The notes beneath the pieces were generated by a model, which ran no database searches, was not told the origin of the DNA, and saw only the letters and a list, made by a program, of their open reading frames with translations. Positions 4,909-22,240 of a DNA stretch of 64,000 bases are shown here, piece after piece. A program made the translations under genes and the position numbers. The DNA is from Halobacteriovorax sp. GB3. GTDB taxonomy: Bacteria > Bdellovibrionota > Bacteriovoracia > Bacteriovoracales > Bacteriovoracaceae. The stretch is from NCBI RefSeq assembly GCF_028649655.1, contig NZ_JAQSLN010000001.1:186001-250000 (forward strand), read 5' to 3'. The first letter of the stretch is position 1, and each line of letters begins with the position of its first letter.

Positions 4909-6284
4909 CTCCTACTTGGTTGACCATCTCCTTTCAGTTTCTTGGCCATTATTACACAATTCTTTTTTTGATATATGTTGCTCTAATATGGAAGGCCAGT
5001 CGACAAGTAAAAAAAGACGTCTTTCAAGAAAGTGTTCTCAACCATTTGGTTAATGATAAAACAAATTTTCCAAGCTTTACTATCATTATTCCGGCCTACA
5101 ACGAAGAGCTTCTTATTTATCAAACCGTAATGTCTTTCATAAAGCTTAATTACAGCAATTTTGAAGTGATCGTTGTCGATGACGGATCAACTGATAAAAC
5201 GATGGATGTATTGAAAGAAAAATTTTGTCTTGTTGCATCTAATGAAGAGCCTATCAATAAAATTGGAAGGAAATCTTGCCATAGCGTTCAGGTTTCAAAG
5301 ACTTTTAAAAATCTCAAGGTTCTCGGCCAAGACAATGGTCGTAAAGGTTCGGCCATTAATCAAGGAGTAGCCTTTGCTAAAAATGATTGGGTTTGTGTTG
5401 TTGATGCGGACACCATCCCAGAAGTTGATGCTCTTTATAAGATGGCCCTTTATATTCTCAATCACCCCAATTATCATGGGATTGGTTGTTCTTTAAGAAT
5501 TGCCAACGGAGCAGAGATTAAAGACTTTTCAATTAGTACAGGAAAGCTTCCTAAGAATCATATTTCTAATTTTCAAATTATTGAATACATCCGCTCTTTT
5601 TTTGGCGGTCGTATTGGGTGGGATGCTTTTAGGGCAACGTTGTTATTGTCGGGTGCTTTCTCGGCCATAAGAAAAGACTTGATATTAGAAGTAGGAGGGT
5701 TCTCTACGACTTCTATTGTAGAAGATCTCAATTTTTGTATGAAGTGCTATCGTGCTCGTGGGAGGAGTCTGAACTTTAAAATCTACCCAGAACCTTTGGC
5801 ATGGACTCAGGCCCCTTTAGATTATCGCTCCCTTGCTGCTCAGAGGTTGCGATGGCAAAGAGGACTAATTGACTCTGTTTGGAGATTTAGAGGCTTATTT
5901 TTGAATCCGAAGATCGGAAGAGTTGGATTCATACACTTTCCCTATTTAATTTATGGAATGATAATTGAGCCATTTATTGAGGTCTATTCCTTTTTTGTTA
6001 TGGTGTATTCTTATCTCTATGGATTTATCTCTACTGAACAGCTATTAGTTCTAACTGGCTTTACTCTTTTTTTAGTGGTGCTCATCAATATTAGCGCTCT
6101 TTCTATTGAAGAAAATTATTTTTCCCGTCAAAAATCTTTGAAAAGCCGCTTTCGTATTATTTTTTATTCCGTTTTCGAAATTATTTATTATCATCAACTT
6201 TTAACACTCTTGAATATTTATGCTACCTTTACCACGTTCGGTTTTAAGCCTAAATGGGGCTACATGAAACGAAATAAATTTTAA
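4902..6284 (+). CDS. Membrane processive family-2 glycosyltransferase
   Basis: A 460-aa GT2 enzyme of the BcsA/PgaC/HasA type. There is one N-terminal membrane segment (about 10-30), a catalytic domain with IIPAYNEE (62-69), VDDGST, the metal-binding VDAD (167-170), the base motif VED (273-275) and QRLRW (314-318), then several C-terminal membrane segments from about residue 345. These motifs mark a processive synthase that polymerises and translocates a polysaccharide. The start ATG overlaps the barrel gene, implying translational coupling. Sugar specificity cannot be read here; no c-di-GMP PilZ domain is present. Confidence 0.88.
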   Translation: MVAPTWLTISFQFLGHYYTILFLIYVALIWKASRQVKKDVFQESVLNHLVNDKTNFPSFTIIIPAYNEELLIYQTVMSFIKLNYSNFEVIVVDDGSTDKTMDVLKEKFCLVASNEEPINKIGRKSCHSVQVSKTFKNLKVLGQDNGRKGSAINQGVAFAKNDWVCVVDADTIPEVDALYKMALYILNHPNYHGIGCSLRIANGAEIKDFSISTGKLPKNHISNFQIIEYIRSFFGGRIGWDAFRATLLLSGAFSAIRKDLILEVGGFSTTSIVEDLNFCMKCYRARGRSLNFKIYPEPLAWTQAPLDYRSLAAQRLRWQRGLIDSVWRFRGLFLNPKIGRVGFIHFPYLIYGMIIEPFIEVYSFFVMVYSYLYGFISTEQLLVLTGFTLFLVVLINISALSIEENYFSRQKSLKSRFRIIFYSVFEIIYYHQLLTLLNIYATFTTFGFKPKWGYMKRNKF

Positions 6285-6837: not shown

Positions 6838-7025
6838 AATACATGGTTAACTTATAAAGTGGTGGCCGTAGAGTTGAGATTTGAATCAACATTTCCTGAT
6901 TATTCTATTTATCCGATACTTCCCTCGCAATAAATGTCCAAAAAATTAAATGGCCCACTATCATTTTTTCAAACCCATTACTCTTTTTAAATTTAGATAT
7001 ATTATGTTTAAAAGAGGAGTCTAGA

Positions 7026-7481
7026 ATGAAGAAGATGAAACTTGTGCTTTTAATTATGCTGGTGGGACAAAGTTCTCTGGCCGCATTATTCCCACTCAAA
7101 TGCCATAAAGAAGAGACTGGTGAAAGTCTCTATTTAGAAAGTCCTAAGTATATTAGAGGACATTTTACTCTTCTGCTTGAGTATACGAAAATGGAAAATG
7201 GTGAAGAATTAATATTCAATGCTGGTCGAAAAGAAGTTAAAAATAAGATCGAGCAATATACGGATGAAGAGGGATTGACTAAGTTACAGTGGTCAGCGCG
7301 AAGTGCGACGGATTTTAGACGTGAGACGGGAGAGCATCCGAATGTTGCTGGTTATTACCGATTTCAGCTTTTTGTTGACGAGCAGGATGATATCTCAACA
7401 GTGACTTCTCTTGAAGTTGTATTAGATAGTAGACGATCTGTTCATTTTGAAAATGGGGAGTGCTCCTTATCAAAGAAATAA
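7026..7481 (+). CDS. Small exported protein, function unknown
   Basis: A 151-aa protein with a clear signal peptide (about residues 1-20, ending SSLAA) and an AGGAG Shine-Dalgarno before the ATG. The mature part has two cysteines, one near each end, that could form a disulfide. It is rich in beta-strand-like segments. No family was recognised. It stands alone, followed by the long leader of the RRM gene. Confidence 0.65.
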   Translation: MKKMKLVLLIMLVGQSSLAALFPLKCHKEETGESLYLESPKYIRGHFTLLLEYTKMENGEELIFNAGRKEVKNKIEQYTDEEGLTKLQWSARSATDFRRETGEHPNVAGYYRFQLFVDEQDDISTVTSLEVVLDSRRSVHFENGECSLSKK

Positions 7482-7803
7482 AGTCTCGAAGTCAAGGCCA
7501 TGTAATTGCACAAATAGTCGTCCGCTTGCTTTTAATTCTTTAGTAGGCTATATTGAATGAGTCGAAAGTTTCTTTATAGCTCAAGTAGCTAATCATCACT
7601 GAAATATAAACATGTTTTTGACTATAGAAATCATTCATATTTGGTTTCTAGGTTATTTTCTCTATTAGCAACAGTTTAAGTAATTTTAACATTTATGTAT
7701 ATGCACATGTTCTGTGCAACAGAGACAATACGTCTCTACTGAATAATATTGAACACTAGAGTTTGTGACCCTAGTGTTTGTAGTATTTACCTTGGAGGTA
7801 AAA
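7482..7803 (+). promoter_or_regulatory. Long structured leader of the first RRM gene
   Basis: A 322-base non-coding stretch. A TTGCTT (7526-7531) - 17 bp - TATATT (7549-7554) pair is a plausible promoter, giving a leader of about 240 nt. Near the gene there are three successive perfect hairpins: TGCACA/TGTGCA (7702-7718), AGAGAC/GTCTCT (7721-7737) and AACACTAG/CTAGTGTT (7752-7778). A GGAGG Shine-Dalgarno lies at 7794-7798. Hairpins are seen in the sequence; the promoter and any regulatory function are inferred. Confidence 0.5.
7752..7778 (+). promoter_or_regulatory. Stem-loop 15 nt upstream of the RRM ribosome binding site
   Basis: A perfect 8-bp stem (AACACTAG with CTAGTGTT) around an 11-nt loop. 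It ends 15 nt before the GGAGG of the RRM gene. The second RRM gene has a CTAG-containing stem in the equivalent place (20746-20777), ending 16 nt before its Shine-Dalgarno, which suggests a shared post-transcriptional or autoregulatory element. Confidence 0.55.
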
Positions 7804-8073
7804 ATGAACACAAAAATTTATGTAGGAAATCTTTCATATGAAGTTGAAAATTCTGATTTGGAAACTCTTTTCGCTAAGGTTGGAGAAGTTATAGCAGTGA
7901 ATGTTGTGAAAGACAGAGACTCTGGACGAGCAAGAGGTTTTGGTTTTGTAGAAATGCAAAAGAGTAATGAGGCCAAAGAGGCCATAAGTAACTTCCATGA
8001 AAAAGACTTTATGGGAAGATCATTAATTGTAAACCTTGCTAAGAATGATAAAACTAGAAGCAACTATCGTTAA
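7804..8073 (+). CDS. RRM-domain RNA-binding protein
   Basis: An 89-aa single RRM protein. RNP2 (IYVGNL, residues 4-9) and RNP1 (RGFGFVEM) are intact, with only a short basic C-terminal tail. The ATG at 7804 follows a GGAGG Shine-Dalgarno; an in-frame upstream start at 7765 falls inside the leader stem-loop and is unlikely. Such small bacterial RRM proteins, known from cyanobacterial Rbp, bind single-stranded RNA and are often cold-regulated. It is followed 65 bp downstream by a CarD-like gene, the same arrangement as at 20806-21673. Confidence 0.92.
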   Translation: MNTKIYVGNLSYEVENSDLETLFAKVGEVIAVNVVKDRDSGRARGFGFVEMQKSNEAKEAISNFHEKDFMGRSLIVNLAKNDKTRSNYR

Positions 8074-8138
8074 GAAAATCCTTTCTTTTAAATAGGCGTC
8101 ATAAAATGGCGCCTCTACAATCAAGTAAGGAGAATGTG

Positions 8139-8618
8139 ATGATTATAGATTTACAAAAACATATAAAAAAGAAAACAAAGGTCTATTCAATAGAAGATGG
8201 AGCTGGTGAGATTACTGGTGTTCTTCAGCTATATGACGGTATAGATGACTATTTTGAAGTTCATTTCTTTAATAGTGATGTAAAAAAATATTTCCCTGTA
8301 CGATCAAATGACAAGATTAGGATTAGCTCTAATCAGAGTGTGCTATCTAAAGCTCTAATCGATTTAGGTCAGAAACTTAACCGAAAAGATTTTAAGTTTG
8401 AGCTCAATTTTTATCGCTTATTACATTCTAAATTAGATGTCTTATTTATAGTTAATGTCATTGCATCATTAAGTAATCAAAATTCTTTTAGTGACGAAAG
8501 TAGGCTAATGCTTTCAAGGTGTATCAGTAGTCTCGTTCTTGAAGTCTCTCATGTCTATGGCACTTCTATTGATAATGCTAAGGGAATTGTTGGAGACCAT
8601 ATGAGGTATGTGTCGTAA
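8139..8618 (+). CDS. CarD/CdnL-like protein, partner of the first RRM gene
   Basis: A 159-aa protein starting at the ATG at 8139, six bases after AAGGAG. Residues about 12-70 follow the pattern of the CarD/CdnL RNA-polymerase-interaction domain: a DGAGEITGV strand-turn, a YFEVHF strand, KKYFPV and an IRISS ending. The rest is helical, as in CarD. It is clearly related to the protein at 21194 (same length, same positions of the G-x-G turn and YF motif) but diverged. By family it may bind the RNAP beta subunit and stabilise open complexes. The match is by eye and the sequence is a remote member. Confidence 0.55.
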   Translation: MIIDLQKHIKKKTKVYSIEDGAGEITGVLQLYDGIDDYFEVHFFNSDVKKYFPVRSNDKIRISSNQSVLSKALIDLGQKLNRKDFKFELNFYRLLHSKLDVLFIVNVIASLSNQNSFSDESRLMLSRCISSLVLEVSHVYGTSIDNAKGIVGDHMRYVS

Positions 8619-8760
8619 TCGAGAAAACTGAAAAAAACTTCTCATCTATTCTCATAATCAGCAGCACATTAAGAAATAAATATATTGATAAATTCTTATT
8701 AGACATCGCCATTTAGTTAATTCAAAATATAGTTTATCACTACATTTATCGGAGAACGAA

Positions 8761-9657
8761 ATGAAGAAGTTTCAATGGACTAATGAAGATTTTCAAGCAT
8801 GGAAATCAAGACATAAAATTCTAAGATCATATCAAGAAGAAGTCGTAAGTAAGATTGAAAAACTCAAAGAAGACTTTGATGTTGATTGCTACGGAGAGTT
8901 GCATTACGGAGATAAAAATTATCCACTCTATAGAATTATGACTAAGAACTATGACTCGTCAAAGAAGAATGTCTTAATCACAGGGGGAGTTCATGGATAT
9001 GAAACAAGCGGCGTTCAAGGGGCCTTGATGTTCTTGGCCGAAAAGGCAAAAGAGTGGCAAAAGAACTTTAACCTTGTGGTCTTTCCTTGTATCAGTCCGT
9101 GGGGCTATGAAACAATCAATCGTTGGAACCCAGATGCAATCGACCCTAATAGAAGTTTTATAGAAAATAGTGATTCCAAAGAATGCGCTGCTGTTTATGA
9201 ATCTTTAAAAGAGCTTGGACTAGATTTTCACGCCCACTTTGATCTCCACGAAACAACAGATACAGATAATACCGTTTTTAGACCTGATCTTGAAAAGCGC
9301 GATGGTATTCCACAAGACTTGTGGGAGATTCCAGATGGATTTTATACTGTAGGGGATTCGAGCAGAGATGAAATTGAATTTCAAAAGGCCATCATAGAGA
9401 GTGTTTCTAAAGTAACTCATATCGCTCCTAGTGATGAGCAAGGAATGATTATTGGCGAGCCAACTAAGGCGCCTGGTATCATTAATTACGATGTTAAAAA
9501 GCTAAACCTGTGTGCAGGCCTTACTAATGCCAAATATGTGACAACGACTGAGGTTTATCCAGATAGTCCGAAAGTTGATGATGATGAGTGCAATCGCGCT
9601 CAAGTTGCAGCTGTTGATGGTGGGTTAGGTTATATATTAAGTAAACTCTCTTCATAA
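8761..9657 (+). CDS. M14-family zinc carboxypeptidase-like protein
   Basis: A 298-aa protein of the M14 / succinylglutamate desuccinylase-aspartoacylase superfamily. The zinc motif HGYE (in GGVHGYETSG, near residue 78), the substrate-binding DPNRSF and the third ligand region FDLHETTD are present. No signal peptide is seen, so it probably acts in the cytoplasm on a small peptide or N-acyl amino acid. A GGAG Shine-Dalgarno precedes the ATG. It stands alone. Fine specificity is not determinable. Confidence 0.8.
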   Translation: MKKFQWTNEDFQAWKSRHKILRSYQEEVVSKIEKLKEDFDVDCYGELHYGDKNYPLYRIMTKNYDSSKKNVLITGGVHGYETSGVQGALMFLAEKAKEWQKNFNLVVFPCISPWGYETINRWNPDAIDPNRSFIENSDSKECAAVYESLKELGLDFHAHFDLHETTDTDNTVFRPDLEKRDGIPQDLWEIPDGFYTVGDSSRDEIEFQKAIIESVSKVTHIAPSDEQGMIIGEPTKAPGIINYDVKKLNLCAGLTNAKYVTTTEVYPDSPKVDDDECNRAQVAAVDGGLGYILSKLSS

Positions 9658-9668
9658 AAGAAGAGAGT
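9645..9668. terminator. Hairpin overlapping the M14 gene stop
   Basis: A perfect 9-bp stem (ACTCTCTTC with GAAGAGAGT) around a 6-nt loop that contains the TAA stop. It has no T-tract and lies between convergent genes, so it may terminate or stabilise either transcript. Confidence 0.4.
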
Positions 9669-9692
9669 CACTATTGTTATTGATTTTGAGAA

Positions 9693-10247
9693 TTAGAAAG
9701 GTTCACTTTCATTACATCTAGGATTTTCTCTTGCAATTTTTGCAAGGTGGAGAAAAGCATTCTCTAAACGATTAACTAAATTACTCTCTTGATTGTTATA
9801 GTTAAAATGAATATCCATTTCAGATGTTGCACTTCTGTATGTTTTTCCTCTTCGCGTGTGTGTATTAACTCTTGTTCCTGCATTGTAATTATGTTCTACT
9901 ACTAGTCGAGGGTATCCCGTGTAGGTCTCTCTATCTTTTCTTATGTAAAAAATGCGTTTTATTTCTTTTAATGGAAAACTCTCATGTCTTTCGTATGAAT
10001 ATGAACTTTTTCCATTACTTCTTTTTCTTAATTCGACTTGAGTAGTCATATGACACTCAGAAAAACTAATAACTGGTCCATCTCCCTGAAACCAAGTATA
10101 GTCTGCTCCTGAGTCAGCATAGATACTCGTGTCGTCGGAGTACTTTAATAATTTACTGTTTATCCAATCCTGAGTTTCTCTAGCACTTGGACTCGCAATA
10201 GTTTGTACACTTAATAGTGTTAAAATGAAAAATAGGGATTTAAACAT
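9693..10247 (-). CDS. Exported protein, function unknown
   Basis: A 184-aa protein with an N-terminal signal peptide (about residues 1-18, ending TIAS) and a strong AGGAGAGA Shine-Dalgarno. The mature part contains two cysteines and a middle rich in Arg/Tyr/Thr strands; no family was recognised. It lies 15 bp downstream of the 388-aa exported protein at 10263 and is surely in the same operon. Confidence 0.6.
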   Translation of the reverse strand: MFKSLFFILTLLSVQTIASPSARETQDWINSKLLKYSDDTSIYADSGADYTWFQGDGPVISFSECHMTTQVELRKRSNGKSSYSYERHESFPLKEIKRIFYIRKDRETYTGYPRLVVEHNYNAGTRVNTHTRRGKTYRSATSEMDIHFNYNNQESNLVNRLENAFLHLAKIARENPRCNESEPF

Positions 10248-10262
10248 ACTCTCTCCTGTCTT

Positions 10263-11429
10263 TTAATTTTTGGCCTGAACGTGGACTTGAATAATATTGC
10301 TAAAAGCGTATGAACGAAACATTTTTGCTGCTCCGTTGTATTTGCGAATAAGGTTTCCATAAACATCGTAATAGTAGGTTTCTGATCTCTCATTTTTATA
10401 GTCGTATTCTTCTTTTTCAAAGACACCTAGTTGATGCAATAGCTCACCCTCTACACTGCAAGGTGCTTTCGAATCGTCGAAGTTGATAATTACACATTCT
10501 TCTGTTTCTCGATTAAAGGTAAATAGTGTTTCGTAAGAGTCAATTGATAAAATGCCATCAACTGTATGAGTGTTTCCATTTCTAATATAGATAGACTTTT
10601 GTTGGTTATAACCACTAAGAATCGTTGTATCTCCAACTCTTTTGATGAAATTCACTGAGAGATTATCCCCAAGGATATAGTCTTTGATATCATCTGATAT
10701 GCTCATCTCTTTTGTTTGATTCGTAAGAAAGTTATGAATGTATAACTTATACTTAGTGTTCCAAGTTATTAAATCACCACCAATTGTAATTGAGTTCTTC
10801 TCATCACTTTTAAAATGAGCTCTTTCAAGATCTATAAAAAAAGTAGGCGCCTTTCTTTTTCTTAGGATTCCATTATCAAAAGTGATTTGCTCAATTTGCA
10901 CTCTCTCTTTTGTTCTTTTAATATTTTCTCCGCTACTAGCCTTTACGAGTGTAGCAAAGTCCAAAATAAGAAGTTTGTTATCTTGGAAGCGAATATATGT
11001 TTTTGCAGATGTCTTTTTTAGGAGTTTATTAATTTGAATAGAGCCATCCTCCATTCTGTCATCTACTCCTTCATGTTTTTCAAAAACCCTTCGGTAGACG
11101 ATTTTATTCTTTTTACTAACAATTATAAGTTGTTTCTTTCCTTGAGTATTTTCACAAACAACGACTTGCCCATGTTTAAATCCAAATACCGGTGAACTTG
11201 CGGATGAGCGTTTTCCTGATTGGAGGTATGAATTATTTCCTGCGCGATAGGAAGATGTTACGGCATAAAAAGGTGATAGTTTGGGACATTCTTGAGTCAG
11301 ATTGATATCAATTTCTTTGGAGTAGGTTAAAGCCCTATACTCATCAAAAACAAAAGACGCCTTAATATTTGTTGCAAGTGAAAATGTAATTGTTAAAAGT
11401 AGTAACTTTAAATAAGCATTTCTATTCAT
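10263..11429 (-). CDS. Exported protein, function unknown (possible beta-propeller)
   Basis: A 388-aa protein with a signal peptide (about residues 1-24). The mature chain has many short beta-strand segments with repeated hydrophobic-x-hydrophobic patterns and paired D/N-G turns, which would suit a beta-propeller, but I see no defined repeat. It is the first gene of a two-gene operon with 9693-10247. Lineage-specific, with no assigned function. Confidence 0.55.
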   Translation of the reverse strand: MNRNAYLKLLLLTITFSLATNIKASFVFDEYRALTYSKEIDINLTQECPKLSPFYAVTSSYRAGNNSYLQSGKRSSASSPVFGFKHGQVVVCENTQGKKQLIIVSKKNKIVYRRVFEKHEGVDDRMEDGSIQINKLLKKTSAKTYIRFQDNKLLILDFATLVKASSGENIKRTKERVQIEQITFDNGILRKRKAPTFFIDLERAHFKSDEKNSITIGGDLITWNTKYKLYIHNFLTNQTKEMSISDDIKDYILGDNLSVNFIKRVGDTTILSGYNQQKSIYIRNGNTHTVDGILSIDSYETLFTFNRETEECVIINFDDSKAPCSVEGELLHQLGVFEKEEYDYKNERSETYYYDVYGNLIRKYNGAAKMFRSYAFSNIIQVHVQAKN

Positions 11430-11681
11430 ATGAAGCCCTAGGGAAATAGGTTTATTTACTAAAAATCAATTTCAATTAAAGATATTCTCTTGAGTCTAGC
11501 AGTTATTGGAGCTTTGATGCCCTAAATTGTAGTTTTTTCTCTAAGTGTTTAATGTTGATATAGTTTTGCTTAGGTCTTTGAGACTAACTTTGGCCTATTT
11601 GTAAAAATTACTCATCCACACAATTCAAAATGCAATACGTGCTAGTGATTTCCCTTTAATATTTAAACTAAGGAAACTTCA

Positions 11682-12074
11682 ATGAAAAAGGCACTTTTAG
11701 CACTAGGATTACTTGTTTCAATCTCATCATTTGCAGATACATATACTTGCTATGTTTATGGCTCTTTTGAAAGTATGGATGGTGAAGTGGCCAAAGTTGA
11801 TGCTAAGGACATTCAAGTTACAGTGGATGCCAATAGAAGTGTTCTCTTTGGTAGAGAAGAAGAGCCTCAATTTGATGGTGACACTCGTCCTGAGACAATG
11901 CCATGGTCGCTCTCTATTAGAAATAAAAGAGATGGTGGACTGAATCCACTAGTTCTAAGTCTTGGGGCTCCTAATCAGAACTCTCGAATTGCTTATGCCT
12001 ACGCTGAGGCGGGATCGAAATATATTGGATTAATTTACAACGATGATATCGAAGCTCTTTGTATTAAGAATTAG
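11682..12074 (+). CDS. Small exported protein, function unknown
   Basis: A 130-aa protein with a classic signal peptide (residues 1-18, ending SSFA-D) and a TAAGGAA Shine-Dalgarno. The mature protein starts with a YTCYVYG strand and ends in a cysteine four residues from the C-terminus, suggesting one disulfide. No family was recognised. Monocistronic between a divergent exported-protein operon and a hairpin at 12106. Confidence 0.65.
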   Translation: MKKALLALGLLVSISSFADTYTCYVYGSFESMDGEVAKVDAKDIQVTVDANRSVLFGREEEPQFDGDTRPETMPWSLSIRNKRDGGLNPLVLSLGAPNQNSRIAYAYAEAGSKYIGLIYNDDIEALCIKN

Positions 12075-12105
12075 TTTCGTTCTCACTTTTGAGAGTCAAA
12101 AATTT

Positions 12106-12136
12106 GTTGGGCCAGAAATAGTGTTGCTGGCCCAGC
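12106..12136. terminator. GC-rich hairpin between convergent genes
   Basis: TGGGCCAG pairs with CTGGCCCA around an 11-nt loop, extended by a G-T and a G-C pair. It lies after the 130-aa exported protein and 80 bp from the end of the convergent merR-like gene. There is no clear T-run, so termination is only likely. Confidence 0.45.
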
Positions 12137-12213
12137 ACTGTGACGATTGTTGAAAACAAGATCAATTTTTAATGTTCTTACTCTACAATTTTCTACACAA
12201 TCAAGGGCAGCTT

Positions 12214-12555
12214 CTATTTCATCTCTTTAAGTAGTTTATCTATTTCTTTGAGAGCAAACTCTCTCTCTTTTATTTCATCTTTCAATTTCATTTTTTTATT
12301 TTTTAAATCTTCTTTAACACCTTCACAAAGCCGGCCTAGTCTTTTCATATTATCAAGGGCCAGTTTAATTTCTTCTAAGGTTAATCCTATCTTCTTACTC
12401 GTTATTATAAACTTTATGTCTTTCAGGTGTTGATTGTTATAGTCACGATATCCATTAGATGTTCTCAAAGGAGGTTCTAAGAGGTTGATTTTCTCATAAT
12501 ATCGAATTGTATCGCGTGTAAGTCCTGATTTTTGTTCGAGTTCTTTTATCTTCAT
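12214..12555 (-). CDS. MerR-family transcriptional regulator
   Basis: A 113-aa MerR regulator starting at the ATG at 12555. The winged HTH is clear (IKELEQKSGLTRDTIRYYEK...GYRDY), followed by a coiled dimerisation helix rich in Lys/Glu. There is only one cysteine (in LGRLCEGV), so a metal-binding MerR site is unlikely; it resembles small MerR activators of oxidative or organic stress. It is divergent from the MBL gene at 12617, and the promoter between them has MerR geometry. Confidence 0.85.
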   Translation of the reverse strand: MKIKELEQKSGLTRDTIRYYEKINLLEPPLRTSNGYRDYNNQHLKDIKFIITSKKIGLTLEEIKLALDNMKRLGRLCEGVKEDLKNKKMKLKDEIKEREFALKEIDKLLKEMK

Positions 12556-12563
12556 AAGAGTCC

Positions 12564-12594
12564 TTGACTGTGGAGTTACTCCATAGATTACCAT
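12564..12594 (+). promoter_or_regulatory. MerR-type promoter with 19-bp spacer
   Basis: TTGACT (12564-12569) and TACCAT (12589-12594) are separated by exactly 19 bp, the lengthened spacer typical of MerR-activated promoters. The spacer contains the dyad TGGAGT-T-ACTCCA (12571-12583). It faces the MBL-fold gene at 12617 and sits next to the divergent merR-like start, so the MerR protein is the natural activator. Confidence 0.75.
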
Positions 12595-12616
12595 AGTTTT
12601 AAATAAGGAGAAAACT

Positions 12617-13396
12617 ATGAAGAATAAATCGGGAATCCAACAAATTAGAAATGCAACAGTTATCATTCATTATGCAGGTAAAAAGATCCTAGTCGATCCT
12701 ATGCTTGCTCCAAAGGGAGCTTTTCCTGGCTTTGAGGGAACTGTTAACTCGCATCTTAGAAACCCACTCGTTGAGCTACCCATTTCAATCAAAGAAATCG
12801 TTGATGTCGATGCGGTGATTCTTACGCATGTGCATCCTGATCATTGGGATGATGAGGCCACGAAGAACATTGCAAAAAATAAATTGATTTTCAGCCAGAA
12901 TGAGAAAGAAAAGGCCTTTTTAGAAAGTGCAGGTTTTACTAACGTAACCGTCGTTGAAGATAGAGTTTACTGGGAGGGGATTGAAGTGATTAAAACTCCT
13001 GGGCTCCACGGTACGCCTGAGGTGGTTGAAGCTGTTGATCTACTAGATGATGTCTGTGGTTTTGTTTTTAAAAATAAAGATGAAAAAACAATCTACCTTG
13101 CAGGTGATACCGTTTGGAATGAGGATGTTAAAAATAATATTAATAGCTATGGGCCAGATGTTATCATTCTAAATGCAGGAGGAGCAGTTGTAGGTGATTT
13201 ACCTCCTATTATTATGGATGAAAAAGATGTTGAGCGTGTTCTTGATTATTCAAAGGAAGCTCAAATTATAACAACCCATCACGAAGCCGTTAATCATTGT
13301 CTCACAACACGATCAAGTTTAGAGTCATTTTTAAAAGAAAGAGGCAAAGAAGAGAGGGTGAAATCTCCGGTAGATGGTACATTTGTTTTTTTCTAG
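12617..13396 (+). CDS. Cytoplasmic MBL-fold metallo-hydrolase, MerR-controlled
   Basis: A 259-aa metallo-beta-lactamase-fold protein without a signal peptide. Ligand motifs: HVHPDHWD (first metal site), LAGDT (bridging Asp) and TTHHEAVNH. It resembles UlaG/L-ascorbate-lactonase-like hydrolases. AAGGAG precedes the ATG. Transcription probably starts from the MerR-type promoter directly upstream. Substrate unknown; a detoxification role would fit a MerR target. Its 3' end overlaps the convergent Rrf2 gene by 4 bp. Confidence 0.8.
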   Translation: MKNKSGIQQIRNATVIIHYAGKKILVDPMLAPKGAFPGFEGTVNSHLRNPLVELPISIKEIVDVDAVILTHVHPDHWDDEATKNIAKNKLIFSQNEKEKAFLESAGFTNVTVVEDRVYWEGIEVIKTPGLHGTPEVVEAVDLLDDVCGFVFKNKDEKTIYLAGDTVWNEDVKNNINSYGPDVIILNAGGAVVGDLPPIIMDEKDVERVLDYSKEAQIITTHHEAVNHCLTTRSSLESFLKERGKEERVKSPVDGTFVFF

Positions 13397-13824
13397 AAAA
13401 TGCCTAACGAAGAAGAGAGCTTGTCTTTATTAACGAGAATATCTTCTAAAGTATAGCCATCGAGGGCCTCGTAAAACTTGTTTTCAGCAACTTTTAGCGC
13501 GGCCTTCAGCTTACAGCTTGGATTGATGGCACAATTGGATGAATTGCCAAAGCATTCAACTAAGTTAGAATCACTCTCAAGTTCCTTAATTAATTTTCCT
13601 ATCTTCAAACTAACGGGCTCTTTTGAAAGAACAATTCCTCCACCTTTTCCTTTGAAAGAGGTAATGACACCCATATTCGAAAGATTGTGAACGACTTTAA
13701 CGAGGTGGTTCCTTGAAATCTTATATTTATCAGCAATCTCAGACACAGTTGAGCGCTCTTGCCCTTTAATGGCAAGGTAGATGAGTACTCTTAAACTATA
13801 GTCTGTAAAACTTGCTAATCTCAT
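13393..13824 (-). CDS. nsrR: Rrf2-family regulator, NsrR type
   Basis: A 143-aa Rrf2 protein. N-terminal winged HTH (FTDYSLRVLIYLA...ISRNHLVKVVHNL) and the cluster-binding cysteines Cys91, Cys98 and Cys104 in ECFGNSSNC...SCKL, the arrangement used by NsrR to hold an Fe-S cluster that senses nitric oxide. It is divergent from a truncated haemoglobin and NnrS, both typical NO-response genes, with an 11-1-11 palindrome between them. The regulon prediction is strong from context. Confidence 0.85.
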   Translation of the reverse strand: MRLASFTDYSLRVLIYLAIKGQERSTVSEIADKYKISRNHLVKVVHNLSNMGVITSFKGKGGGIVLSKEPVSLKIGKLIKELESDSNLVECFGNSSNCAINPSCKLKAALKVAENKFYEALDGYTLEDILVNKDKLSSSLGIF

Positions 13825-13869
13825 AAAACATTCCTGATAACTAAAATACCATCTTGCATTAGGAATTAT

Positions 13870-13892
13870 AATATGTATATTATATGCATATT
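13870..13892. promoter_or_regulatory. Putative NsrR operator
   Basis: A 23-bp palindrome of 11-1-11 form with one mismatched pair; the left arm begins AATATGTATA and the right arm ends TATGCATATT. This size and layout match known NsrR sites. It lies 20 bp upstream of the haemoglobin start and 46 bp from the divergent regulator, so it could repress both. Confidence 0.7.
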
Positions 13893-13911
13893 ATGAAAAA
13901 GGAGAGTGAAA

Positions 13912-14277
13912 ATGACGAATTTATTTGAAAAAATTGGTGGTAGGGAAGCCGTTAATGCAGCAGTAGATGTTTTTTATAACAAGGTCTTAGCTGATGAGAG
14001 AATCAATAAATTCTTTGAAGGAGTCGATATGGCCTCTCAAAGAAGAAAACAGATCTTATTTTTAACGTACGCCTTTGGTGGACCAAATAATTATGACGGC
14101 GACAATATGAGAGAGGCCCACGCGAAACTTGTAGAGCAGGGACTCAATGAATCTCACTTTGATGCCGTACTGGAAAACTTAGGAGCAACTCTAAAAGAGT
14201 TAGGTGTTTCTGACGAGCTTATTGGTGAGGCCGCGGCCATTGCCGAGTCAACTAGAGCGGATGTTCTAGGGAAGTAA
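13912..14277 (+). CDS. Truncated haemoglobin (group I-like)
   Basis: A 121-aa truncated globin. The B-helix FY (residues 21-22, Tyr at B10), the glycine motif near the N-terminus (KIGGREAV) and the proximal His70 (REAHAKL) are present. I start it at the ATG at 13912; an upstream GTG at 13906 would be too close to the AAGGAG. It probably detoxifies NO by dioxygenation. First gene of an operon with nnrS, 8 bp apart, behind the putative NsrR operator. Confidence 0.9.
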   Translation: MTNLFEKIGGREAVNAAVDVFYNKVLADERINKFFEGVDMASQRRKQILFLTYAFGGPNNYDGDNMREAHAKLVEQGLNESHFDAVLENLGATLKELGVSDELIGEAAAIAESTRADVLGK

Positions 14278-14285
14278 GAGCGAGT

Positions 14286-15431
14286 ATGCTAAAAGATCGC
14301 GCGCTTCTATCAATTAGTTTTAGACCGTTTTTCTTATTGGCAGCATTGATTGCTTTTATCAATCCGAATTTGTGGGTCGTTAGCTACCTTGGTCGATTGA
14401 ATCTTCCTCTAAGCTTAGTCGATCCACTTTTTTGGCATGCTCACGAAATGCTCTTTGGTTTTACTGGAGCACTCATCGCTGGTTTTATTTTAACGGCCAG
14501 TGCAAATTGGACAAATTCGAAACCCTATCAAGGCTGGCCATTACTTATTCTGATTCTATTTTGGCTAATTGAGAGGGGGAGTTACTTTTTAATTTCTAGT
14601 ACTCATCTTCAATTTGTTTTTGGAAATATCTTCTTTCCATTACTCATGATCATGCTATTAGTTAAGCTTTGGAATTTTAAAAAACAAAGAAATGTCTTTG
14701 TCACAATTCTTTTCGGGCTAACCATTTCAAAAACTCTTCATAGCTACGGTTATTTCTATGCAAAGGGAGAAGTTGAAATCATGGGACGCGAGATGGCGAT
14801 CGCTCTCATTCGCTTGATAGTCTTGTTAATTGCAGGAAGAATTCTTCCCTTTTTTAGCTCTAAAAAAATTGATGAAATAAAGATTCAGGTTCCTAAGTGG
14901 ATTAATGCCATTTCTCTTGCAAGTTTAGTTACTCTAGTTCTTCCTTTTTCAAAAGGGATTGAGATTACACTATACTTGATTGCTTTCTTGTCCAATATGA
15001 CAAGGCAGCTCTATTGGAAACCCCATTTAACTTGGCGCTTTCCAATTCTTTTTATTCTACATATTGGGATTTTTCTCATTAATATTGAACTCCTCCTAGA
15101 GGTTATTTCTTTTTTTAACGAGCAAGTTCATTTCACTCAAGCAAGTCTCCATCTTTTGATGTCCGGAGGACTTGGAGTCATTGGTGTGGGAATCATGAGT
15201 CGGGTATCTCTTGGCCACACAGGGAGAGTGATACGCGCTGATTTATGGACGAGACTATCCTATGCTTTCATTTTAATAGGGAGCCTCATTCGTGTCATTG
15301 TCCCCATTTTCTATTCCGATTATTTTGAGCGAAGCCTTCATTTTGCGAGTGGTTTTTGGACGCTTGGTTTTTTGATCTTTTTAATTCGCTATTTTTTGAT
15401 TTTGGTTTGTAAAAGACCTGATGGAAGATAG
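14286..15431 (+). CDS. nnrS: NnrS family membrane protein
   Basis: A 381-aa polytopic membrane protein with about twelve hydrophobic segments. The family signatures are clear: SFRPFFL at the N-terminus, WHAHEMLFGF and GFILTASANWT, plus a later LLMSGGLGVIGVGIMSR. NnrS is a haem- and copper-containing membrane protein that protects against nitrosative stress. It follows the truncated haemoglobin with 8 bp between, under the same NsrR-type control. Confidence 0.9.
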   Translation: MLKDRALLSISFRPFFLLAALIAFINPNLWVVSYLGRLNLPLSLVDPLFWHAHEMLFGFTGALIAGFILTASANWTNSKPYQGWPLLILILFWLIERGSYFLISSTHLQFVFGNIFFPLLMIMLLVKLWNFKKQRNVFVTILFGLTISKTLHSYGYFYAKGEVEIMGREMAIALIRLIVLLIAGRILPFFSSKKIDEIKIQVPKWINAISLASLVTLVLPFSKGIEITLYLIAFLSNMTRQLYWKPHLTWRFPILFILHIGIFLINIELLLEVISFFNEQVHFTQASLHLLMSGGLGVIGVGIMSRVSLGHTGRVIRADLWTRLSYAFILIGSLIRVIVPIFYSDYFERSLHFASGFWTLGFLIFLIRYFLILVCKRPDGR

Positions 15432-15458
15432 TATTAATAAAGTGATTTTTATATTATC

Positions 15459-15490
15459 TTGACTCTGTACCATGGTACGTCCTGTATCAT
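15459..15490 (+). promoter_or_regulatory. arsH promoter with embedded 12-bp palindrome
   Basis: TTGACT (15459-15464) and TATCAT (15485-15490) are separated by 20 bp, or TGTATC by 18. The spacer holds the perfect palindrome GTACCATGGTAC (15467-15478). A long spacer over a dyad suggests MerR-like activation or simple repression. No cognate regulator is adjacent; the nearest MerR gene is 3 kb away. Confidence 0.5.
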
Positions 15491-15507
15491 CTAGGAAAGG
15501 AGCCATC

Positions 15508-16170
15508 ATGAAATACTTAGAATCGGAAACATTCAACCTCATTGCAGATAATTCAAACACTCTTGATCATAAACCTCGAATTCTAATTCTCTATGGTTCT
15601 CTACGAGAACGATCTTATTCTAGGCTCCTGGCCGAAGAGGCAGGAAAAATTCTAGAGTATATGGGAGCTGAAGTTAAGTATTTTAATCCTGATGGACTTC
15701 CTACCTATGATTATGATCGTTCACTAGAGCATCCTAAAGTACAAGAGCTTCGAGAGCTTTCACTTTGGTCGGAAGGGCAAGTTTGGTCATCTCCTGAGCT
15801 TCATGGAAATATGTCTGGCCTGATGAAAACACAAATTGACTGGATTCCACTTACCCTTGGTGCCGTTCGACCTACTCAAGGAAAGACTTTGGCCGTCATG
15901 CAAGTTAGTGGAGGTTCTCAAAGTTTCAATGCCGTCAATAATATGCGTGTTCTTGGAAGATGGATGCGTATGATTACGATTCCAAATCAGTCATCAGTGG
16001 CGAAGGCCTATCAAGAATTTGAAGAAGATGGTTCAATGAAAGAGTCTTCTTTTCGAGACCGTGTGGTTGATGTAATGGAAGAACTTATGCGCTTTACTTA
16101 TCTCACTCGATCTCATTCCGAATTTTTGGTGGATCGCTATAGTGAGAGAAAAGAAAAAGCTTCTACTTAA
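15508..16170 (+). CDS. arsH: ArsH NADPH-dependent flavin reductase
   Basis: A 220-aa ArsH flavoprotein. Near-consensus blocks are visible: [12 protein letters not shown] (FMN phosphate loop), [28 protein letters not shown] and VLGRWMRM. The ATG at 15508 follows AAAGGAG. ArsH proteins oxidise trivalent organoarsenicals or reduce quinones and metals with NADPH. No arsR, arsB or arsC is nearby, so a general redox-stress role beside the NO-response genes is possible. It has its own promoter and ends in an 8-bp overlap with the convergent gene. Confidence 0.93.
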
Positions 16171-16990
16171 CAATCGAAGTAACCATACAAGAACTAAACC
16201 CGATAGCAGAAACGTGACCTTCTTTTAAAACGACTTGGCCCGTACATTCTTTATAGCTATCGAGACTACATTTTTGTAGAGCCTCTTGTTTCGCACAGAG
16301 AATGGCCTGCTTTACTTCTTGGGTATTATTAGAGCAAGCTGGTCCATAGTAGGCAAGTGCGTGTTTTGCCTGACAGCTTCCGTAGTAGGGTTGGATATTT
16401 TTCTCTTTTAAGATCGATACTTGTTCGTCAAAGAATTTATTAAATTTGATCGAAGTCTTGTAGACATTTCTTTCATTATCAATAATTCCAAGATACTCAT
16501 GGAAAACGAGGCGAATTTTCTGAGAGATTGTCATCTCTCTCCAACGTTTTCTGCTAATAAGAATTTTCTTATCTTTTGGAAAGTTAAGGGCATCGACGAG
16601 CTGACCATTCACTTTAACATATTTCCCTTCATCAGAGTAGACGACCACTTCTTCAGTTGCCTTTAAAAAGGCATTGGCATCAATGATATTATTTTCTAAT
16701 TTAGTAAGTGATTTTGCCAATTCAAAACCAATTGAAGCGAATTCACTTCCATAGGAATCACCACCGTTTGGCCCATCGTTACCAAGACTTGCTTCGGGGT
16801 TGAATCCTCGATGTTCTTTTAGAAAATCAGTGAAGCTCTCAAGCTTTGTTTCTTTGTCTTTTTTATTCAACTTGGCTTCTGTATAAGCAGTGAGCCAGTC
16901 TGGTATTTCATTTGAATTGGTTTTTTGCTCTTCTTTAGCAAATGACAATTGTAGCGATAGGAATACGAGAATGAATAATAAATTTTTCAT
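16163..16990 (-). CDS. Exported protein in the TIGR02147 operon
   Basis: A 275-aa protein with a signal peptide (about residues 1-18, ending LSFA). A glycine/asparagine-rich stretch near residue 65 ([12 protein letters not shown]) and a C-terminal cysteine-containing domain (cysteines near SCQAK, ACSNN, LCAK, KCSL, ECTG and SSCM) are seen. [17 protein letters not shown] contains an HExxG-like helix, not a full HExxH. It overlaps the TIGR02147 regulator by 4 bp, so the two are co-translated. Function unknown; the pairing with that regulator is typical of Bdellovibrionota. Confidence 0.6.
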
Positions 16991-17775
16991 TGTAATTTCT
17001 CTTGGCTAATTTGTGTTAAAGGAAAAAGTTGAACACTTAGTGTGTATACCTCTTCTTGCTCATCCATACTTTCCAATTCTTCAGATAAATTTCTTCTAAA
17101 TTCTTTAATCTTTGAAATAGCGTATGGGATGTGTTTAGGATTGAGTGTAAATGTTGTCGATGAGATGCTTCTCTTATCAAAATCACATTCTTCCATTGAG
17201 TTACTGGCCTTCTTTAAAAGAGTCTTATTAAATTTCTTTCCAGCTTCAAAGGCAATGTCGTTATCTACGACAATTTTCAAAGGCTTTTGAGTAAATTGTC
17301 CCTTAGAGTTTTTCTCGATGACATCGAGACTTTTAAGTCTCGCCATGGCCGTTTTGACTTTATTTTGACTTGTTCCTAATCGATTGGCGATCCACTGAGC
17401 ATTCCACTGAAAGTTTGGAATTTCTGTAAGACTTAGAATCGCATAGTGAATCCAATCGGACATCATTTCAGATTGTTCCAAAGAAAGCTTTTGAAAACTC
17501 TCTTCAGGTGTTGGCTCTCTTTCAAGACCAAGAGCTAAGACTTCTCTAGTTTTTTTTGTAAGGACTTTGTTGTCTTTTACTTTCTTAGAAAAAGTATCTG
17601 TAACTCTTCTTTTTCCTTTAAAGATGAGGCTTAAAAGAGTGTGGCTTACGCCAAGATCTCTTGCAAAGGAGCGAAGTGAGTAGAGCTCATTTCTCCTTTG
17701 CTTGAGATGATATTCATCTTTAAGAACTTTTACTTTCTCATCGTGAATGTTGTAGTTTTCGGCAGTATTCATCAT
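16987..17775 (-). CDS. TIGR02147 / DUF4423 family regulator-like protein
   Basis: A 262-aa protein of the TIGR02147 family, abundant in Bdellovibrio relatives and Fibrobacter. Features seen: an N-terminal HTH (YSLRSFARDLGVSHTLLSLIFKGKR, about residues 30-55), the DWIHYAILSLTE segment that opens DUF4423, a second winged-helix part (IANRLGTSQNKVKTAMARL) and a C-terminal acidic/Leu-rich stretch. No signal peptide. It sits third in a four-gene operon with three exported proteins, overlapping the last by 4 bp. A DNA-binding role is inferred. Confidence 0.85.
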   Translation of the reverse strand: MMNTAENYNIHDEKVKVLKDEYHLKQRRNELYSLRSFARDLGVSHTLLSLIFKGKRRVTDTFSKKVKDNKVLTKKTREVLALGLEREPTPEESFQKLSLEQSEMMSDWIHYAILSLTEIPNFQWNAQWIANRLGTSQNKVKTAMARLKSLDVIEKNSKGQFTQKPLKIVVDNDIAFEAGKKFNKTLLKKASNSMEECDFDKRSISSTTFTLNPKHIPYAISKIKEFRRNLSEELESMDEQEEVYTLSVQLFPLTQISQEKLQ

Positions 17776-17778
17776 TGT

Positions 17779-18261
17779 CTAATTTAAAACCTTACAGTCT
17801 TTACCCTTGTGCTTATAAACAAACTCAGTCGGCTTGATCGCATCAAGTTTTTCTAGAAGAGTTTCATTAAAACAAGCTTCTGTTGGGTTTTCTTCACAGC
17901 GCTTGGCCATTGAATACATCGCCTTTTCCGAGAGCTTTCTCTGCTCACAGCTAACGGCGATTTGAATTTTGAACATTCTTAAGATGTATGGGCTCCATTG
18001 AGTACGTTTAAGATCTGTTTCTGTAGAAACGAGAACTTTAGAGCATTCATAATCAAAACCTTTTTCAAATCTTTGAGTTAATCTTACTTCGACATGATTA
18101 ATTATTTCAGTAAGCTTACTTGTACAGCGATTTTTTACATCGTATTTTGAGTCTCTTTTTTCGGATGATTCAATAAAGTCCCTATAAATAACTTTCATCT
18201 CTCCAGCCACTGAGCTTAGTGAAAGAAGAGCAATTGAAATTGCAAGTATCTGTTTTTTCAT
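17779..18261 (-). CDS. Exported cysteine-containing protein in the TIGR02147 operon
   Basis: A 160-aa protein with a signal peptide (about residues 1-19, ending SSVAG) and an AGGAGAAT Shine-Dalgarno. The mature part has six cysteines (RCTSK, ECSK, SCEQ, RCEE, ACFN, DCKV), suggesting disulfides outside the cytoplasm. Only 3 bp separate it from the TIGR02147 gene downstream. No family recognised. Confidence 0.6.
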   Translation of the reverse strand: MKKQILAISIALLSLSSVAGEMKVIYRDFIESSEKRDSKYDVKNRCTSKLTEIINHVEVRLTQRFEKGFDYECSKVLVSTETDLKRTQWSPYILRMFKIQIAVSCEQRKLSEKAMYSMAKRCEENPTEACFNETLLEKLDAIKPTEFVYKHKGKDCKVLN

Positions 18262-18328
18262 AATATTCTCCTGTTTCTTAATAGATGTAACATGGATTCA
18301 AATATTGGTTATTGAACATGTAAAAATG

Positions 18329-18661
18329 TTAGAATCCATAGCCGTGAACAGTGGCCTCGGCCTTACACGACTTGAAACCTGGGAATTCGAAGCTTGTCTT
18401 TTCGCTCACTTCCACAGCGACTTTTACACAGTCGATATTGTCATCGAGCTCACATTTGTTGAAGGCCTTCTCAAGTGCACACTGAGCAATTTCATGTTTG
18501 TAATAACGACTTCTTTGACAAGACTCATAAACGTTAAGTGGAGTACCGAGGCTACAGTTTTCTTTGTAAACTCTCTTTTTGTACATTGACTCAGCTGTGT
18601 CTGCTTTAGCGATTAAGCTGATTGATGATAGTGCCATGATTGTAATAAGTGCTAATTTCAT
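18329..18661 (-). CDS. Small exported cysteine-rich protein
   Basis: A 110-aa protein. The ATG at 18661 follows GGGAGAGAAA and begins a clear signal peptide (ending IAKA-D), which rules out the longer in-frame start. Five mature cysteines (ENCSL, ESCQR, QCALE, KCELD, DCVK) plus one near the end (KSCKA) resemble the spacing in the 160-aa neighbour and in the C-terminal domain at 16163, so the three exported proteins of this operon may share a cysteine-rich fold. Confidence 0.6.
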   Translation of the reverse strand: MKLALITIMALSSISLIAKADTAESMYKKRVYKENCSLGTPLNVYESCQRSRYYKHEIAQCALEKAFNKCELDDNIDCVKVAVEVSEKTSFEFPGFKSCKAEATVHGYGF

Positions 18662-18886
18662 TTTCTCTCCCTGTTGTTTTGCGTGTTGGTTACGCTTTGT
18701 AAGTTGGAGCGAATTTAGAATTTGTAACCGCGTTCGTCTAGGGGGTGATTTCACTAAGTGGTAACGGCCTTGTAACCGTGGCCATTTTTACACAAGTAGG
18801 AGTTATCATTTGGAAATCTTTACGAAAAGATCACTTATAGATGACTTATAATGGAGGTGATTGGCCTAATCTAAGCTTAGAAAAAG

Positions 18887-18922
18887 AAAGGATTAAAAAA
18901 AGGATTAAAAAAAGGATTAAAG
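18887..18922 (+). repeat. Three tandem 12-bp repeats overlapping the yghU ribosome binding site
   Basis: AAAGGATTAAAA is repeated three times (18887-18898, 18899-18910, and 18911-18921 with a G in place of the last base), ending directly at the ATG of the YghU gene. Each unit carries an AAAGGA Shine-Dalgarno; the last is correctly spaced. Copy number could vary by slippage and change translation. Confidence 0.85.
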
Positions 18923-19780
18923 ATGAAATCAAATTATACAGTACCCAAAGTTTGGAAAAATGACTCTGAAAATGGAGGTCAATTCGCCTCGATAAATAGA
19001 CCTACAGCAGGAGCTCGTTTTGAAAGAGAGTTACCTGTTGGAGAGAATCCATTACAGTTATATTCCCTTGGAACTCCTAACGGCGTAAAAGTCACTATTA
19101 TGCTCGAAGAACTTTTGGCCCTTGGAATTAAAGAAGCTGAGTACGATGCCTTTCTGATCAATATCGGTGAAGGTGATCAATTCTCTAGTGGCTTTGTAAA
19201 TATTAATCCTAATTCAAAAATACCAGCATTAGTTGATAAGAATAATGGTAATCCCATTTCTATTTTCGAATCCGGTTCAATTCTAATCTATCTTGCAGAA
19301 AAGTTTGGGCACTTCTTACCAAAAGATTTAAAGGAAAGAACTGAAGTCCTCAATTGGTTATTTTGGCAAGTCGGTAGTGGCCCATACATTGGTGGGGGCT
19401 TTGGCCATTTCTATTCATATGCTCCAGAGAAATTTGAATACCCAATTAATCGATTTACTATGGAAGCGAAAAGACAGTTAGATGTCTTAGATAAACAACT
19501 CGAAAAGACAACTTACATTGCTGGTGAACAATATTCAATCGCCGATATGGCAATCTTCCCTTGGTATGGTGCTCTTGTAAAAGGCAAGCTTTATGATGCC
19601 GGTGAATTTTTAGCCGTTCACGAATATAAGAATGTTTTGAGATGGGCCGATGAACTTTTAACACGTAAAGCGCTTTTAAAGGGACGCTTGGTTAACCGCT
19701 CTTGGGGTGATGAGGATCAACAACTGAAAGAAAGACATAGCGATCAAGATTTTGAAAATCTCAATTTGAAGTTTAAATAG
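18923..19780 (+). CDS. yghU: YghU-type glutathione S-transferase / disulfide reductase
   Basis: A 285-aa GST-family protein of the Ure2p-like Nu class. The N-terminal extension (FASINRPTAGARFE) is diagnostic of YghU/YfcG relatives. The thioredoxin-like domain (LYSLGTPNGVKVTIMLEEL...NPNSKIPALVD...FESGSILIYLAEKFG) precedes a helical C-terminal domain. E. coli homologues reduce disulfides using two bound glutathiones. The ATG follows three tandem repeats containing Shine-Dalgarno sequences. Its stop overlaps the convergent rhomboid gene by 8 bp. Confidence 0.92.
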   Translation: MKSNYTVPKVWKNDSENGGQFASINRPTAGARFERELPVGENPLQLYSLGTPNGVKVTIMLEELLALGIKEAEYDAFLINIGEGDQFSSGFVNINPNSKIPALVDKNNGNPISIFESGSILIYLAEKFGHFLPKDLKERTEVLNWLFWQVGSGPYIGGGFGHFYSYAPEKFEYPINRFTMEAKRQLDVLDKQLEKTTYIAGEQYSIADMAIFPWYGALVKGKLYDAGEFLAVHEYKNVLRWADELLTRKALLKGRLVNRSWGDEDQQLKERHSDQDFENLNLKFK

Positions 19781-20805: not shown

Positions 20806-21090
20806 ATGAGTAATAAGCTTTATGTAGGAAATTTATCATTTAACCTTCAAGAAGATTCTCTAAGAGAAACTTTCGCACAACACGGTAGCGTTGTTTCATG
20901 TAAAATCATTTCGGATAGAGACACTGGAAGAAGTAAAGGTTTTGCTTTTGTTGAAATGAGCTCTGTTCAAGAAGCTCAAGATGCAATCAGCTCACTAGAT
21001 GGTAGTGATCTTGATGGTCGTGGTCTAAGAGTTAGCGAAGCTAAGCCACAAGAAAAAAGAGAACGTGGTTTCAGCTCAAACCGTTGGTAA
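20806..21090 (+). CDS. RRM-domain RNA-binding protein
   Basis: A 94-aa single RRM protein with RNP2 (LYVGNL) and RNP1 (KGFAFVEM) intact and a short Arg/Ser-containing tail. AAAGGAG precedes the ATG. It is a paralogue of the protein at 7804 and heads the same two-gene arrangement, with a CarD-like gene 103 bp downstream. By family it binds RNA; cyanobacterial relatives respond to cold. The hairpins before its ribosome binding site suggest regulation at the mRNA level. Confidence 0.92.
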   Translation: MSNKLYVGNLSFNLQEDSLRETFAQHGSVVSCKIISDRDTGRSKGFAFVEMSSVQEAQDAISSLDGSDLDGRGLRVSEAKPQEKRERGFSSNRW

Positions 21091-21193
21091 TTGAAGCTCT
21101 TTAGCTAATTGATTCGAAGAAGGACTGTTATTTCTGTAATGATGGTCCTCTTTGAGCTTTTTTTCTTGAATTGAAGTCTCTATAAGGATGTGT

Positions 21194-21673
21194 ATGAGTA
21201 CTAAGAAAGCAATAGTTGGTCAGAATATTATTTGTGGAAGTATTGGTATTGGAAAAATTATTGATGTAGCTCCTCTACAAGATGGTGGTGAAGAATTTTA
21301 TAAAGTTACTTTTCCAAAAGAGAAGTGCATCAATTATTTTTCTATTACTAACGATAGCAATTATAGAGTTCTTTCTACTAAAGATGATATCGAAAAAGCC
21401 GTCAAAATTTTTAAATCTGATTTCGACGAAATTGAATACTCATCAACACAAGAGAGAATCAATTCTCAAAAAGAACTGTTAAAAGAGTCTGATGTTTTTA
21501 AACTCGCTGAAACTCTATCACTTCTTAGCCGTGAAAAGAATCTACACGCTCAAATCTCAAAACCTTATAAAGATTCACTAAGAACCTTTGTTGAAGAAGT
21601 ATCATTTGTTTTACAAGTTTCTAAAAATGAAACATATAAGTTACTAGGAATTGAAAAGCCTAAGAAAATGTAA
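21194..21673 (+). CDS. CarD/CdnL-like protein, partner of the second RRM gene
   Basis: A 159-aa protein. I use the ATG at 21194, since AAGGA overlaps the earlier ATG at 21188. The N-terminal part fits the CarD/CdnL RNAP-interaction domain: VGQNIICGSIGIGKIIDV, then FYKVTFP, NYFSI and YRVLSTKDDIEKAV. A helical C-terminal half follows. This copy is the more recognisable of the two. It aligns along its length with the 8139 protein. Family members bind the RNAP beta subunit at promoters; here the RRM neighbour hints at a transcription/RNA-fate link. Confidence 0.62.
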   Translation: MSTKKAIVGQNIICGSIGIGKIIDVAPLQDGGEEFYKVTFPKEKCINYFSITNDSNYRVLSTKDDIEKAVKIFKSDFDEIEYSSTQERINSQKELLKESDVFKLAETLSLLSREKNLHAQISKPYKDSLRTFVEEVSFVLQVSKNETYKLLGIEKPKKM

Positions 21674-21676
21674 GAT

Positions 21677-22168: not shown

Positions 22169-22222
22169 ATATTCACTGTCTTTGAAATTTACAATTTTGT
22201 AAAGAATAGATAGAAGAAATGG

Positions 22223-22240
22223 AGTTTGACACATCAAACT
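22223..22240. promoter_or_regulatory. Operator-like palindrome, copy 1
   Basis: AGTTTGACA-CAT-CAAACT, part of a perfect 8-bp dyad (GAGTTTGA/TCAAACTC, 4-bp gap). It contains TTGACA (22226-22231), a consensus -35 box, with a weak TACGCT -10 at 22250, facing the propeller gene at 22286. A near-identical 18-mer is found at 26693-26710. Confidence 0.65.

Follow-up and report, generated by a model that had tools for sequence, protein, structure and literature searches.

A single stretch of 64,000 nucleotides of the Halobacteriovorax sp. GB3 genome (contig NZ_JAQSLN010000001.1, positions 186,001 to 250,000; referred to here as the window, with coordinates given within it) carries two small RRM genes, each followed by a gene for a protein resembling CarD/CdnL. 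CarD/CdnL proteins are promoter-opening factors, and the arrangement raises the question of whether an RNA-binding protein and a relative of these factors form a functional unit.

Two RRM-CarD gene pairs in the window

An original prediction, made from the sequence alone, described a pair of an RRM gene and a CarD-like gene present twice in the window. All four genes are open where it placed them, and Pfam RRM_1 is found in both RRM products.

7804..8073, + strand: RRM1, single-RRM RNA-binding protein, 89 aa (RRM_1, E=1.2e-20)
8094..8114, + strand: hairpin between RRM1 and CarD-A, AGGCGTCAT-AAA-ATGGCGCCT, resembled by hairpins of L154 and L156, from two further genomes
8139..8618, + strand: CarD-A, CarD/CdnL-fold paralogue, 159 aa, without the CdnL tryptophan and basic patch
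20806..21090, + strand: RRM2, single-RRM RNA-binding protein, 94 aa (RRM_1, E=1.4e-22)
21091..21170, + strand: region between RRM2 and CarD-B, a long hairpin with a T run after it that by eye resembles a terminator
21188..21673, + strand: CarD-B, CarD/CdnL-fold paralogue, 161 aa (ATG 21188) or 159 aa (ATG 21194)

The RNP1 and RNP2 motifs of the RRM domain can be read in the sequences (YVGNL, and RGFGFVEM or KGFAFVEM), and against the NCBIfam model NF058537 (Rbp_regulator; curated cut-off 100 bits) RRM2 scores over the cut-off at 108.3 bits and RRM1 under it at 96.3. The start of CarD-A is placed at ATG 8139 because this codon has a ribosome-binding site upstream and agrees with relatives; a longer frame from ATG 8106 starts within the hairpin. 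Joint transcription of RRM2 and CarD-B may be partial, since the terminator-like hairpin lies between them, although that hairpin is not called by a consensus terminator scan. Downstream of the second pair, window positions 22286-24163 encode a large protein containing both PD40/WD40-like repeats and Kelch repeats.

The 3.62 Mb genome (G000) has one canonical CdnL gene, located beside a uvrB-like gene on contig C3, a long TRCF/Mfd-type RID protein (1178-aa frame) on contig C5, and three divergent CarD paralogues (A, B and C). The gene for CarD-C (L043 1016-1492) belongs to a third pair, on a different contig from the window (L043 1016-1773; C3, about 845.2-845.9 kb), in which the order is reversed and CarD-C overlaps the following RRM gene by 4 nt. 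Three of the four strong RRMs of the genome thus have a CarD-paralogue neighbour, and the fourth (L044) has none. There is also a degenerate copy of CarD-B that contains an in-frame TAG (C1:676395-676700; L157 about 5870-6140, also L026), which has the same upstream AAACYAATCGYAAARTTT element as RRM2.

CarD identity of the second genes

Single-sequence Pfam searches give a sub-threshold match of CarD-A to CarD_TRCF_RID (E=0.064) and a match of CarD-B to CarD_C just above the cut-off (E=6.4e-5). A profile built from 19 relatives matches CarD/CdnL full length among solved structures (E=4.3e-13 at best); the top 13 rows all belong to the CarD family, and an hhalign comparison with the eleven canonical CdnL proteins reaches 98.6%. 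The predicted models (pLDDT 90.6 for CarD-A and 91.8 for CarD-B) align with known CarD/CdnL structures at Z 12.2 for CarD-A (6edt_M and 4l5g_A; 144 residues at 4.0 Å with 6edt_M) and Z 15.0 for CarD-B (4l5g_A; 151 residues at 3.1 Å), where unrelated rows reach Z of about 6; Foldseek on the CarD-A model is consistent with a full-length CarD match. The CarD arrangement, an N-terminal Tudor-like RNA-polymerase-interaction domain and a helical C-terminal domain, is complete in both models. As the original prediction had proposed, both second genes can be assigned to CarD, and the assignment, though weak in single-sequence Pfam, is secure by profile and predicted structure. CarD-A and CarD-B were also said to be alignable and of equal length; they align over 140 residues with 22% identity (one pairwise comparison, E=6e-7), and their lengths are equal if CarD-B starts at the second of its two ATG codons.

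Residues altered and retained in the paralogues

Alignment of 53 paralogues from the same family shows a consistent change on the DNA side of the protein. The tryptophan and the basic motif WNRR(Y/H)R are present in 11/11 canonical CdnL proteins and in none of the 53; SKKDRI- or STQERI-like motifs occupy the site in C- and B-type paralogues, and a 3-residue gap is found there in the A-type. The position of Myxococcus xanthus CdnL F36 is F or Y in 51/53 paralogues. The P51-equivalent is proline in most C-type proteins, serine in most B-type and variable in the A-type, so that docking on RNA polymerase could be weaker or absent, especially in A; the M49-equivalent is variable across the set. In M. 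xanthus CdnL, RNA polymerase binding requires F36 and function requires R90, R91 and R93; the R90A/R91A/R93A protein still binds RNA polymerase and does not stabilise the open complex, and W88A on its own has no effect (PMC4182748). Judged from the alignment, the RNA-polymerase-facing N-terminal core is mostly retained and the C-terminal tryptophan and basic patch are gone, the simplest reading being that the paralogues would dock on RNA polymerase without the DNA-side contact of CdnL.

Pairing with RRM genes across the family

Profile scores over 129 genomes of the family separate the paralogues (>104 bits) from canonical CdnL (<79 bits). The 53 paralogues are the intact matches above 104 bits together with one truncated CarD-A (G012), none having been picked for an RRM, and their flanks were scanned for RRMs up to 6 kb on each side (1.5 kb for CarD-A and CarD-B themselves). 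The pairing seen in the window recurs in relatives: an RRM gene lies within 320 bp of 16/53 paralogues (14 genomes, 9 genera), with 0.064 expected if three RRMs per 3.5 Mb are placed uniformly, and 13 pairs in 13 genomes are left when this genome is removed. The pairing is not due to chance, and may be undercounted because some contigs end near the genes; roughly two in three paralogues lack an adjoining RRM.

Canonical CdnL loci have no nearby RRM (0/31; Fisher p=2e-4 versus paralogues). Nor is there a CarD gene in the fetched flanks (up to about 4 kb) of 80 RRM loci in other bacterial groups, which came from an RRM-profile scan of named genomes and serve as a control. Among 291 genomes across the phylum there are no strong paralogue matches outside the family, and the CarD paralogues are confined to this one family. 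No RRM-CarD fusion was seen in the loci read. A phage origin was considered and rejected, CarD-B having no match in 50,697 phage records. In G012 a TAG cuts CarD-A short (L156 5989-6201), and the RRM gene and its leader are intact there. Ten genomes (L142-L152) share a clade of unpaired CarD paralogues (96/96), whose surrounding genes are conserved and include no RRM.

Gene arrangements and history

The paired loci have several organizations: RRM-CarD, CarD-RRM with a 4-8 nt overlap, RRM-CarD-RRM, divergent, RRM-B-A and RRM-A-B. In two RRM-CarD-RRM sandwiches (L111 5726-6799 and L132 5932-6988) the genes overlap or abut.

A 100/100 branch separates the paralogues from the canonical CdnL of this genome, and A and B form sister clades (each 100/99) that are both present in several genera; the two stand in tandem in three genomes and behind one RRM in two genera. 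The co-occurrence of these sister clades in several genera indicates that the A/B split is old and that the two window modules do not stem from a recent duplication. The earlier description of the module as duplicated and diverged has to be amended accordingly, and the third pair of the genome is in reversed order. RRM adjacency switches at least 8 times on the paralogue tree. Cognate types stay together, in that each of the three pairs of this genome is nearest to its own type, and RRM and CarD distances are correlated over 15 pairs (r=0.64, p=5e-5), a correlation that comes partly from shared species history.

Other genes in the module loci

RRM proteins, CspA and DEAD-box helicases are classic cold-shock RNA chaperones, and CspA or DEAD-box genes are immediate neighbours in only a few of the loci. 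The order is RRM, 80-aa Tudor-like protein, DEAD-box helicase, CarD-B and CarD-A in L124; RRM, Tudor-like, DEAD-box helicase and CarD-A in L133; and RRM, CarD-B and CspA in L125. In L112, whose genome is congeneric with that of the window, the order is Tudor-like, CarD-B and CspA.

The protein of about 80 aa (GDYINHFKFGFGFI; L124 3044-3286, L112 5742-5987, L133 7975-8211, L153 7182-7460) has no significant match in Pfam and is called Tudor-like from its sequence pattern. It is also located next to RRMs without CarD (L301, L306, L308) and next to CspA or DEAD genes (L301, L310). In two genomes of one genus an opposite-strand DEAD-box helicase lies near an unpaired CarD paralogue (L139 5926-8483, L140 5998-8824).

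The CspA and DEAD-box neighbours provide a circumstantial link of the module to cold. A cyanobacterial RRM protein is required for growth in the cold, and such genes can have cold boxes in the 5'-UTR (PMC9333190).

Structured leaders of the RRM genes

Both RRM genes of the window are preceded by predicted RNA structures that enclose the ribosome-binding site (RBS).

7702..7803, + strand: RRM1 5' leader, structured, with hairpins at 7702-7718, 7721-7737 and 7750-7780, then an RBS-enclosing hairpin (z=-3.4)
7786-7792 and 7796-7802, + strand: arms of the RRM1 RBS hairpin, TTTACCT and AGGTAAA
20745..20805, + strand: RRM2 leader, structured, with the hairpin TCGCTAGTTC/GAACTAGCGA plus a small RBS hairpin TATC-AAAGGA-GATA (z=-4.5)

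Leaders of the A-type contain two or three hairpins followed by TTTACC-TTGG-AGGTAAA around the ribosome-binding site, and the other four of the RRM1 type have folding z-scores of -3.4 to -4.3; the RRM2-type leaders contain TATC-AAAGGA-GATA. Folding z is below -3 in 7/15 leaders that precede paired RRM genes or related ones, compared with 4/120 controls (3.3%) and 1/26 leaders of other RRMs. The long hairpins vary in sequence between genera and keep their place, and a MAFFT alignment of the leaders misaligned the diverged hairpins. As the hairpin arms were picked by hand for complementarity, counting their pairing is circular, and the weight is carried by the folding z-scores alone. Rfam has no match in window positions 7000-22300 at E<=1 and none at the gathering threshold in seven related loci.

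The possibility that the leaders mark a wider shared regulon was rejected. The RRM1 RBS-hairpin sequence TTACCTTGGAGGTAA has a single occurrence in this genome, and this type is found in 9/129 genomes, preceding RRMs of CarD-bearing loci in seven and not in the other two (L172, L177). The RRM2 version likewise occurs once in this genome and, over nine genomes, precedes an RRM in four and does not in five.

The DNA upstream of RRM2-type genes (window 20640-20740, L114, L125, L124 and L133) is alike between genera by eye and contains the element TTTTTCTTTTCGTTT ... CAAAC-AATCG-AAAATTT, a possible promoter or regulator site. Perfect copies of the promoter-proximal element in this genome lie only upstream of RRM2 and of the degenerate CarD-B remnant; as a wider site it was rejected, since two-mismatch counts in seven genomes are similar to those of a reversed-pattern control.

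A proposed role for the RRM-CarD module

We propose, with a probability of roughly 0.5, that the loci constitute a lineage-specific operon module in which RNA-chaperone genes are combined with a CdnL/CarD paralogue that would dock on RNA polymerase while lacking the DNA patch, RRM output being controlled through the leader. The paralogue would bind the beta lobe of RNA polymerase, instead of or beside CdnL, and would alter initiation at some promoters with no DNA-side contact of the CdnL type. The co-produced RRM protein, accompanied in some species by CspA and a DEAD-box helicase, would keep the resulting transcripts unstructured, and the leader hairpin could set RRM output in response to temperature or to the RRM protein itself. 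The original prediction had likewise suggested a coupled transcription/RNA-fate regulator, perhaps for cold or life-cycle switching. Cold acclimation would be the likeliest trigger; life-cycle switching finds no support in any of the analyses.

The chief alternative is that the genes are co-regulated but their products are not physically coupled: one stress response, probably cold shock, would act through a shared promoter on an RRM protein that is an RNA chaperone and on a CarD paralogue that is a separate transcription factor. We regard this as a serious possibility, though not the one we would back. It accommodates the interchangeable partners (an RRM in this genome, Tudor-like protein and CspA in its congener), the freely varying gene order and the two thirds of paralogues that are unpaired, but in several loci the genes overlap by 4-8 nt, which points to more than common timing, as does the matched divergence of cognate pairs, although species history adds to that correlation.

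A paralogue of this kind might instead be a dominant-negative competitor that holds the beta lobe without DNA contact and lowers CdnL-dependent promoters (e.g. those of rRNA), with the RRM stabilising selected mRNAs. The retained polymerase-facing core, the absence of the tryptophan and basic patch in 53/53 paralogues and the binding-competent, inactive R90A/R91A/R93A form of M. xanthus CdnL (PMC4182748) are as this account would predict; the conserved SKKDRI and STQERI motifs at the patch site in C- and B-type proteins suggest a different positive function rather than simple loss, and we consider the competitor improbable. Least credible by far is that the genes are chance neighbours or a few inherited duplications of no functional meaning: the loci are not fully independent, as all cases fall in one family, but 16 pairs against 0.064 expected, at least 8 state changes on the tree and several gene orders speak strongly against it.

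A broader form of the proposed module can be imagined as a new class of bacterial coupling factor, in which patch-less CarD-fold proteins on RNA polymerase and dedicated RRM, CspA or DEAD-box chaperones would set promoter choice and transcript folding jointly, and the RRM leader would hold a new cis-regulatory RNA that completes a feedback loop; this extension is speculative and we think it rather unlikely. If the module acts as proposed, it would be a new use of the CarD fold, with paralogues throughout a family shedding DNA-side residues and travelling with RNA chaperones. The loci also provide named genes for testing whether initiation factors and RNA folding are coupled in bacteria, and the RRM leaders are a candidate new regulatory RNA that is open to testing.

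Comparison with known systems

No description of RRM and CarD/CdnL together was found in the open-licence literature, and the module resembles several known systems in its parts. Like CdnL/CarD of Myxococcus, Mycobacterium and Thermus (family CarD_CdnL_TRCF), the paralogues have a Tudor-like N-terminal and a helical C-terminal domain in about 160 aa, match these proteins structurally over their full length and share core glycine residues and the RNA-polymerase-facing aromatic. They differ in being 14-23% identical to the solved structures, in lacking the tryptophan and WNRR(Y/H)R, and in being paired with RRMs. M. xanthus CarD is likewise a second, specialised family member alongside CdnL (PMC4182748); it has an HMGA-like DNA-binding tail, whereas CarD-A and CarD-B have about the length of CdnL and their models extend no further than the CarD fold.

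Cyanobacterial Rbp1/RbpA1 and Bacteroides RbpB are single-RRM proteins, as here (NCBIfam Rbp_regulator), and the cyanobacterial proteins are stress-linked, with 5'-UTR elements tied to the cold response (PMC9333190). The difference lies in the CarD neighbour, absent within about 4 kb from all 80 RRM loci of other bacteria. Finally, the CspA and DEAD-box helicase genes familiar from cold shock are present in some of the module loci, where they are clustered with paralogues of an RNA polymerase accessory factor.
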